A stretch of 64,000 bases of DNA from NCBI RefSeq assembly GCF_030167915.1, contig NZ_JARGNB010000002.1, positions 1,054,001-1,118,000 of the forward strand, in the 5' to 3' direction. The notes under the pieces are model-generated. The model was given only the letters and a program-made list of their open reading frames with translations, did no database searches and was not told the origin of the DNA. Positions 26,613-28,665 of this stretch are shown piece by piece. Each line of letters starts with the position of its first letter. Within the stretch, counting starts at the first letter, position 1. The translations under genes and the position numbers were made by a program. This DNA is from Aquabacterium humicola (lineage in GTDB: Bacteria > Pseudomonadota > Gammaproteobacteria > Burkholderiales > Burkholderiaceae_C).

Positions 26613-26666
26613 GTGCTTGGTTGCACCGCAATCTGCGGCGGTCTCCGACTTCGGAGCGTCACTGGC

Positions 26667-27446
26667 ATGAAGCCTCTTGTCCCTGTCGCGCCGGGCGCGC
26701 GCATCGCGCTCGGCGTGGGATTCTTCGTCGTTTTCGTCGCCGCCTGGAGCCTCGCCACCTTCGGCGGCTTCGTGCAGAAGACCTTCCTGGCCGACCCGCT
26801 GACGATGCTGAAGAGCGGCTACACGCTGCTGGCCGAGATGGGGTTTATCGGCGACATCGGCATGACGGTGTGGCGGGTCGTCGGCGGCTTCGTCATCGCC
26901 GCCGCGCTCGCGCTGCCGCTCGGCGTCGCGATGGGCGCGTACAAGCCGGTCGAGGCCTTCTTCGAGCCCTTCATCTCCTTTGCACGTTATCTGCCGGCGT
27001 CGGCCTTCATCCCGCTGCTGATCCTGTGGGCCGGCATCGGCGAGGCGCAGAAGCTGGCGGTGATCTTCATCGGCAGCTTCTTCAACCTGGTGCTGATGAT
27101 CGCGGTGACGGTGGGCAATACCCGGCGCGACCTGGTCGAGGCGGCCTATACGCTGGGGGTGCGCGACCGCAGCCTGATCCGCCGCGTGCTGATTCCCGGC
27201 GCCGCGCCGGAGATCGCCGAGATCCTGCGCATGGTGCTCGGCTGGGCCTGGACCTACGTGATCGTCGCCGAGCTGATCGGCGCGTCCAGCGGCATCGGCC
27301 ACATGATCACCGACAGCCAGGCGCTGCTGGCGACCGACCAGATCATCTTCGGCATCATCGTGATCGGCCTGATCGGCCTGGCCAGCGACCTGCTGTTCAA
27401 GGCCGCGAACCGGCGGCTGTTCCCATGGGCGCAGCTGGGGCGGTGA
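26667..27446 (+). CDS. ABC importer permease (SsuC/TauC type)
   Basis: A 259-residue inner-membrane permease with about six hydrophobic segments, starting RIALGVGFFVVFVAAWSLA. The cytoplasmic EAA loop that contacts the ATPase is visible as VEAAYTLGVRDRSLIRRVLI-type sequence near residue 155, followed by PGAAPEIAEILRMVLGWAW. This matches binding-protein-dependent transport permeases of the nitrate/sulfonate/taurine group. The start used is the ATG before KPLVPVAPGA; an in-frame Met 18 codons upstream falls in repeat-like sequence. Confidence 0.92.
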   Translation: MKPLVPVAPGARIALGVGFFVVFVAAWSLATFGGFVQKTFLADPLTMLKSGYTLLAEMGFIGDIGMTVWRVVGGFVIAAALALPLGVAMGAYKPVEAFFEPFISFARYLPASAFIPLLILWAGIGEAQKLAVIFIGSFFNLVLMIAVTVGNTRRDLVEAAYTLGVRDRSLIRRVLIPGAAPEIAEILRMVLGWAWTYVIVAELIGASSGIGHMITDSQALLATDQIIFGIIVIGLIGLASDLLFKAANRRLFPWAQLGR

Positions 27447-27514
27447 GCGCTGGCCGAGGGGCGGCGTTCGGCCCTGTGCGGGTGGTCGCCGTCGCGTGCC
27501 GAGGTCTGCACAAG

Positions 27515-27640
27515 ATCAGTCCGGCGGGGCGCTCTGTTCCGCTCATGTCCCCCGGGCCGGGCTGCGCTGTGACGCCCAGGCTGAGTTTCGGCCGGCCCTC
27601 CTCCTTGACTTCGCTCCACAGAGCGCCCCGCCGTCCTGAT
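27515..27640 (-). repeat. Structured repeat, copy A
   Basis: A 126-bp element. Its ends are 23-base arms (27515-27537 and 27618-27640) that pair at 21 of 23 positions. The inside read on the minus strand carries conserved blocks: AGCGAAGTCAAGGAGGAG at the start, CAGCCTGG in the middle and GGGGGACATGAGCGGA at the end. The blocks are shared with copy B, but the terminal arms are not. A perfect 27-base inverted match (27589-27615 against 27710-27736) links the two copies. It could be a mobile miniature element or a structured RNA. Confidence 0.85.
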
Positions 27641-27685
27641 CCGCACCGCCCTGGCAGGCCGTCGCATGCCACGGTGTCGCTTGAG

Positions 27686-27810
27686 CCAAGGCCGCTGGGT
27701 GCCCGGCGTAGCGAAGTCAAGGAGGAGGGCCGGCCGGGATCCAGCCTGGTGCGTATCAGCGGCGCACGGCCCGGGGGACATGAGCGGAGCCGGGCACCCA
27801 GTGGCCTTGG
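27686..27810 (+). repeat. Structured repeat, copy B
   Basis: A 125-bp element opposite in orientation to copy A. Its terminal arms are 22 bases (27686-27707 and 27789-27810), starting CCAAGGCCGC and ending GTGGCCTTGG. They pair at 21 of 22 positions, the exception being compatible with a G-U wobble. The core 27710-27788 repeats the copy-A blocks in the same order. The inner stem GTGCG/CGCAC also differs in sequence from copy A, where it is GGGC/GCCC, yet stays paired. Confidence 0.85.
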
Positions 27811-27873
27811 CGCGCTCGGTGCTTGCATGCATGACCGCACCGGGCCGTCAGCCGCCTCCAAAGGATTCGTCAA

Positions 27874-28665
<792 letters not shown>

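Follow-up and report, generated by a model that had tools for sequence, protein, structure and literature searches.

What is the long palindromic sequence that separates two genes of an ABC importer in the 64,000-nucleotide stretch of DNA analysed here (the window), and how can its two opposite parts have terminal arms that seem unrelated to one another and yet remain paired within each part? The element lies between a gene for a BPD permease (26613-27446) and one for an ABC ATPase (27874-28665), with an ORF of NMT1-like domain further upstream, in agreement with the importer context given in a preliminary description of the locus. That description had regarded the two parts, A and B, as two opposite copies of one element. 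Searches of the own genome (G000; other genomes are likewise designated by G numbers, and individual loci by L numbers) return A plus B as a unit, so that they are better described as the halves of a single composite repeat of ~380 bp, two giant hairpins in opposite orientation, with the following features.

27469..27847, no strand assigned: whole composite, delimited by its outer inverted ends, the alignment of own-genome copies and an empty site in genome G015
27469..27481, plus strand: left outer end, CGGCCCTGTGCGG, a degenerate copy of CGGCCCGTTGCGG, from the own-genome alignment
27514..27641, minus strand: giant hairpin of half A, the minus strand being the folding (purine) strand
27514..27537, plus strand: outer arm of half A, partner of 27618-27641
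27540..27554, plus strand: core block 1 of half A, CGCTCATGTCCCCCG (CGGGGGACATGAGCG on the purine strand)
27598..27614, plus strand: core block 2 of half A, CTCCTCCTTGACTTCGC (GCGAAGTCAAGGAGGAG on the purine strand)
27618..27641, plus strand: outer arm of half A, partner of 27514-27537
27644..27676, no strand assigned: spacer between the halves, an inverted repeat CACCG..TGGCA / TGCCA..CGGTG read from the sequence
27685..27811, plus strand: giant hairpin of half B, the plus strand being the folding (purine) strand
27685..27707, plus strand: outer arm of half B, partner of 27789-27811
27711..27727, plus strand: core block of half B, GCGAAGTCAAGGAGGAG
27772..27786, plus strand: core block of half B, CGGGGGACATGAGCG
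27789..27811, plus strand: outer arm of half B, partner of 27685-27707
27835..27847, plus strand: right outer end, CCGCACCGGGCCG, in opposite orientation to the left one, from the own-genome alignment

The ends of the composite, near 27469-27481 and 27835-27847 and made of degenerate inverted CGGCCCGTTGCGG, are approximate, because the inserted DNA may reach slightly beyond 27469 and 27847. Each half, of about 100-128 nt, follows the same general plan: an outer stem of at least 21 pairs leads to a conserved internal loop, beyond which an inner stem is closed by an apical loop. The two sides of the internal loop read GCGAAGTMAAGGAGGAG and CGGGGGACATGAGCG on the purine strand. This strand is the minus strand in A and the plus strand in B, such that the halves diverge across the spacer, and as a consequence of their inversion each DNA strand has one foldable half in either orientation of the element. 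The pairing of the terminal arms and the core blocks reported previously are present in the sequence, with arms of 24 nt that are 92% complementary in A and of 23 nt that are 96% complementary in B. The same holds for the 27-base match between the halves, 27589-27615 being the reverse complement of 27710-27736. Compared with dinucleotide shuffles, half A folds as DNA with a z-score of -4.0 on the minus strand (-4.5 on the opposite strand) and half B with -5.5 on the plus strand (-5.9 on the opposite strand), the scores of the two strands thus being nearly alike in the window copy. For the plus strand of the whole element, the fold of lowest predicted energy is one long A-B hairpin, and each half alone is predicted to form its own hairpin.

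We give an even chance to the explanation that we consider best, namely that the composite is a non-autonomous mobile repeat of the BIME/REPIN kind, made of two giant opposite hairpins, whose folded strand, probably as single-stranded DNA, is recognised in trans. The evidence is set out below together with the alternatives on which it bears.

Compensatory evolution of the stems

Pairing was assessed in an alignment (A2) of 76 halves, i.e. the 2 halves from the window and 74 picked from 102 candidates, which stem from the 174 halves at 113 loci among the matches listed. Standard pairs occupy 96.6% of the 2454 cells of this alignment (33 pairs), compared to 66.5% with shuffled partners and 36-40% with slid partners. 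Changes on both sides are found at 31 of the 33 pairs (shuffled mean 24.5), and the covariation score reaches 0.766 against 0.190 after shuffling. As the loci were collected by exact occurrence of the core pattern in genome contigs (at least 120 stretches), part of the conservation of the core is built in; the pattern does not cover the arms, the inner stems or the apical loops, which are hence unselected. As the structure was read from the same alignment, and the above figures are therefore not independent, a held-out check was run on 95 distinct halves without any alignment, taken partly from the same records as the aligned ones. In these, 1871 of 1995 arm positions (93.8%) are Watson-Crick or G.T pairs, versus 1130 of 1995 (56.6%) with shuffled partners, and the number of paired positions falls below 18 of 21 in 6 of the 95 halves.

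Linked changes are also evident within the core. CGTTCGTG faces CCTCAC in all 10 halves that have it, and TCCTCC faces CCCCC in 9 of 11 halves (not in the other 2); less common combinations are CGCGAATG with TTATTTCGC, and CGCGGCTG with TTATGCCGC. Taken together, the paired arms and the linked core changes indicate that the seemingly unrelated arms of A and B are the result of drift by compensation across genomes. The arms of A and B do differ as previously noted, yet each arm is mostly conserved among own-genome copies (9.6% mean pairwise divergence, 12 copies). Compensation in the inner stem, also proposed for the window copy, is evident across the family but difficult to judge in this long-looped copy itself. 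The more general proposal of a selected structure, with conserved loops inside variable complementary stems, is strongly supported by covariation, by held-out pairing and by the strand-biased wobble pairs described below. Selection against similarity of A and B arms inside a composite was considered as well and discarded, as it gave no signal (0.570, versus 0.572 shuffled).

The folding strand and its chemical nature

In the aligned outer arms, the purine strand displays 140 G.T against 7 A.C mismatches, and the pyrimidine strand the reverse. The same asymmetry applies to all 174 halves (363 versus 37) and to the held-out halves (216 versus 24), compared to 303 versus 177 with shuffled partners, with G.T or G.U representing about 9% of outer-stem pairs. 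This shows that, in each half, it is the purine strand that is under selection to fold as a single strand. Symmetric cruciform DNA was rejected on these grounds, because a cruciform folds on both strands and predicts no one-sided excess of wobbles. The purine strand is the more stable one in 75 of the 76 aligned halves, with RNA as well as with DNA parameters.

The apical loop has the form C-GNA-G in 112 of the 174 halves, and in 3 of 49 triloops of background hairpins in the same loci, either strand being counted. C-GNA-G is an unusually stable DNA mini-hairpin, which would favour single-stranded DNA as the selected form. The ready use of G.U pairs nevertheless fits RNA, which makes RNA the main rival. 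The purine strand would then be a structured RNA that spreads as a repeat, with a role in stability or processing, or as a regulatory element or small RNAs, an alternative that we regard as possible but rather unlikely. The inverted pair would in this case provide any read-through transcript with one foldable half, which we consider just as doubtful. The strand-specific tolerance of G.U is typical of RNA, and the internal loop with its linked changes and tandem G.A, as well as an extra module of 69 nt with a fixed loop position in three composites, are in keeping with it. RNA-type tetraloops, on the other hand, are few among the 174 apical loops, and Rfam 15 yielded no family at gathering score over the whole window. 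A permissive search returned MIR918 with 65 and 62 bits (E 5e-11 and 2e-10) and flavi_FSE with an E of 3.3. The MIR918 match, far below its cut-off of 268, was dismissed as that of a long-hairpin model which fits any giant palindrome.

The placement of elements relative to genes bears on the same alternative. Using gene calls from a GC3 heuristic, and with 19 elements that overlap a called ORF set aside, 72 elements were located between rough gene calls, 53 between tandem, 15 between convergent and 4 between divergent genes, and elements are scarcer in divergent gaps than in the other gaps of the same loci (p about 4.5e-5). The predominance of tandem gaps (53/72) would suit an RNA, as would the solo halves between tandem genes, 15 of 23 of which lie with the gene (2 of 27 solos, at locus ends, were set aside). 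Composites, with 19 of 24 loci countable, divide 9 against 10 in their orientation to genes, which argues against an RNA. Neither count, 9 versus 10 for composites or 15/23 for solos, reveals a clear bias in the orientation of elements to genes.

Dispersal and empty sites

The own genome contains 16 loci of the family, lying both ways round. Twelve are nearly full-query matches (the window copy and 11 others, 90-93%), 3 are partial (89-95%), and one is a match of 73%. Divergence among the 12 copies is lowest in the core (0.9%) and rises from the outer arms (9.6%) to the inner stem and loop (19%), the spacer (23%) and the outer flank (48%). Among the matches listed are Rubrivivax, Hydrogenophaga, Rhodoferax, Variovorax and other Burkholderiales, and also Luteimonas and Pseudoxanthomonas. 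The family is thus patchy in Burkholderiales, present in some Xanthomonadaceae, and often multi-copy. Copies elsewhere, with arms that pair, were what the preliminary description had made its case depend on, and a covariance model of the hairpin (R1) indeed detected it in at least 21 of 60 related genomes, the own one included: at least 16 of 21 in the genus, at least 4 of 15 among other family members and at least 1 of 24 in the rest of the order. In a class-wide draw, at least 4 of 274 genomes were positive, again including the own one, and one of the four was weak. Matches per genome number at least 29 in G000, at least 22 in G015 and at least 30, the highest figure, in G029; genome and copy counts are lower bounds owing to the stricter filters of the large-scale model searches and their ceiling on the candidates scored in each genome. 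A search for the element at DNA level retrieved only 7 of the 60 related genomes, such that a structure model is needed.

The gap between cores in 49 composites of other genomes ranges from 72 to 195 nt, with a median of 100, and 27 solo halves are listed. In G029 (L256, L257, L265 and L275-L282), 13 copies were read without an R1 mate in the surrounding stretch, and 11 of these adjoin another conserved large repeat containing AACTCGCTGCGCTC. At L167 and L180, the halves occur in the reverse, facing order, with a short gap similar to that of the usual divergent pairs. A module of ~69 nt with a perfect stem of 13 bp (ACAAACAGTCCA/TGGACTGTTTGT) is found at one fixed position of the internal loop in three R1 composites, L013 and L014 of the own genome (once in A and once in B) and L133 of Albitalea terrae, as well as in a different context at L136 of a Rubrivivax MAG.

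Evidence for mobility was obtained by comparison with a single species, G015. The two genes next to the window copy are separated by 12 nt in G015 and by 427 bp in the own genome, and at the site matching that of the L002 copy G015 has about 23 nt between genes. Presence and absence at matching sites of two species is thereby shown, deletion in G015 being the alternative to insertion. These two sites empty in a related species, along with the 16 own-genome loci in both orientations, support the earlier suggestion of a mobile element. As to insertion into palindromes, also suggested as a possibility, no palindrome was seen at the two empty sites (intergenic gaps of 12 nt and ~23 nt). Flanks at both sites are too diverged to fix the junctions, and no target duplication was seen. 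At a third site, located upstream of an ABC ATPase gene, both species carry an element (L004 in G000, L057 in G015), each belonging to its own species' subfamily; this may be due either to independent insertion at one place or to an old insertion followed by homogenisation. Of 21 genomes in an orthology search for the L004 site, only 2 yielded matches.

Collections of plasmids and phages contain no match to the window element, and its transport as plasmid or phage cargo was rejected accordingly. The core pattern matched 1 viral contig, and for a Variovorax copy there are matches of 69-72% in 3 records of large Variovorax plasmids.

The mover and relation to known repeats

REP sequences of 20-50 nt carry a tag and, in E. 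coli, a stem bulge needed for activity, and BIMEs are inverted pairs of them, as described in passages of PMC8266576; for REPINs, which are doublets, a long-hairpin or clover form has been proposed in PMC3116915. The present family shares with BIMEs and REPINs an inverted pair of imperfect hairpins joined by a linker, a mismatch loop in the stem, intergenic location, multiple copies and folding of one strand. It differs in that its hairpins are about 100-128 nt long, as against 20-50 nt for REPs (PMC8266576), its arms vary freely with compensation, and it has neither a tag nor, in the own genome, a Y1 transposase. A REPIN proper, moved by a RAYT, is a highly improbable reading. The inverted doublet, the conserved mismatch loop in the stem, the intergenic location and the patchy occurrence (PMC8266576 and PMC3116915) would agree with it, and a single Y1_Tnp match is present in 12 of 17 element-bearing genomes. 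The Y1_Tnp profile, however, has no match in G000, G015 and G018, though G000 and G015 hold many similar copies, and among the relatives the gene is found in 14 of the 21 that have the hairpin and in 28 of the 39 that do not. None of 12 Y1 loci of element-bearing genomes has a hairpin within about 1.5 kb. The foot of the hairpin lacks a conserved tag of the GTAG/CGTC type, no position up to 60 nt from the base of the arm exceeding 0.38 bits over 160 halves. A RAYT-driven REP was accordingly set aside, there being no link in the own genome, the 17 element-bearing genomes, the 60 relatives or the 12 Y1 loci, and the family is not filed as REP because tag, size and RAYT were all tested and each disagreed. 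Most family members among the 60 relatives have a single weak Y1_Tnp gene, RAYT-like, regardless of the hairpin repeat.

Among other known systems, integron attC sites fold on the bottom strand (PMC8266576). With these, the family has in common that the folded single-stranded DNA of one strand would be the substrate, unlike attC sites being an inverted pair with a long conserved internal loop. ERIC and other long palindromic repeats are long palindromes found between genes, as is the present element, which differs by its two self-paired hairpins, its conserved internal loop and its one-strand wobble bias. A search of the literature by motif letters and topic, restricted to open-licence PMC text such that an earlier description may exist elsewhere, found no description of the hairpin family. 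Six terms for relevant taxa and topics are absent from PMC3733652, passages of PMC2267715 give Bordetella and Neisseria as the beta-proteobacteria studied, and a passage of PMC2817692 reports a RAYT in Thauera with no counterpart in other betaproteobacteria. This is a large repeat family, and apparently an unnamed one.

It might also be asked whether the halves are the ends of a cargo-carrying transposon, of which the composite would be the empty form. Three divergent pairs in G025 do enclose extra DNA, namely about 2.8 kb with an ORF for an ORC-CDC6-like ATPase and a 290-aa ORF without Pfam match at L253, 785 bp at L254 and 317 bp at L255. The halves of L253, however, seem to share one arm type and could represent two distinct copies, the longest ORF of L254 (313 aa) passes through the right hairpin, and L255 shows no convincing enclosed ORF. 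As no widened pair was noticed among the matches listed (120 pattern loci) either, we judge such a transposon to be very improbable.

For the favoured BIME/REPIN-like mobile repeat, the acting form would be single-stranded DNA exposed in replication or transcription. A protein supplied in trans would recognise the purine-rich sequences conserved in the internal loop (GCGAAGTMAAGGAGGAG and CGGGGGACATGAGCG), the arms needing only to pair and being free in sequence, and recognition would lead to copying or moving into short intergenic gaps. Copy number, covariation, one-strand wobbles, C-GNA-G loops, empty sites, orientation (9/10), the scarcity of divergent gaps and the divergence of the core (0.9%) versus that of the spacer (23%) were counted in its favour. 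Counted against it were that neither a mover nor a target duplication was seen, a tolerance of G.U that fits RNA at least as well, the long A-B fold, the single comparison species with its possible deletions, the third site filled in both species and the partly built-in conservation of the core. It is tempting to speculate further that the family represents an undescribed class of mobile elements in Burkholderiales and Xanthomonadaceae, i.e. hairpin pairs of opposite polarity in single-stranded DNA, with a conserved purine internal loop recognised by an enzyme other than a known Y1 transposase, interchangeable hairpin types, optional modules and occasional gene enclosure, although we hold this only tentatively. 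Compensatory evolution is very clean here, and the genomes concerned may be devoid of the enzyme to which the spread of such hairpins is usually attributed. The repeat family offers a direct means of distinguishing selection on folded single-stranded DNA from selection on RNA, and identifying what moves it might uncover a novel mechanism for the mobilisation of hairpin DNA.

MITEs, as well as NEMIS/Correia-type repeats, are short, non-coding, dispersed sequences with inverted outer ends and insertion polymorphism. The window element resembles them in these respects, with inverted ends that are degenerate and known from the own genus, and differs in that no autonomous partner or target duplication was seen and that its internal hairpins are under strong selection. 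An ordinary MITE, in which a DDE-type transposase acts on the outer CGGCCCGTTGCGG ends and the hairpins are passengers or protective, is unlikely in our view. It would account for the identical outer ends on a second hairpin-element family of about 600 bp in the same genome. But CGGCCCGTTGCGG ends are not evident around many composites of other genera, no gene-carrying element is found among the 23 best end matches of the own genome, target duplications were not seen, and selection on the hairpins would be left without explanation. A transposase with matching arms, as envisaged previously, was likewise not seen. The 23 matches to the CGGCCCGTTGCGG ends in the own genome (at most 2 mismatches) are all at the window-element family or the second hairpin family, and outer ends common to both families hint at a common mover acting on them.

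The second family, of ~600 bp with large inverted hairpins and CGGCCCGTTGCGG ends, is found at 318116-318740 of contig C42 in the own genome (L198, L199) and at L207 and L211. It also occurs at the contig ends of C1, C3, C4, C14, C40, C41, C43 and C44, and many contigs of the assembly break inside it.
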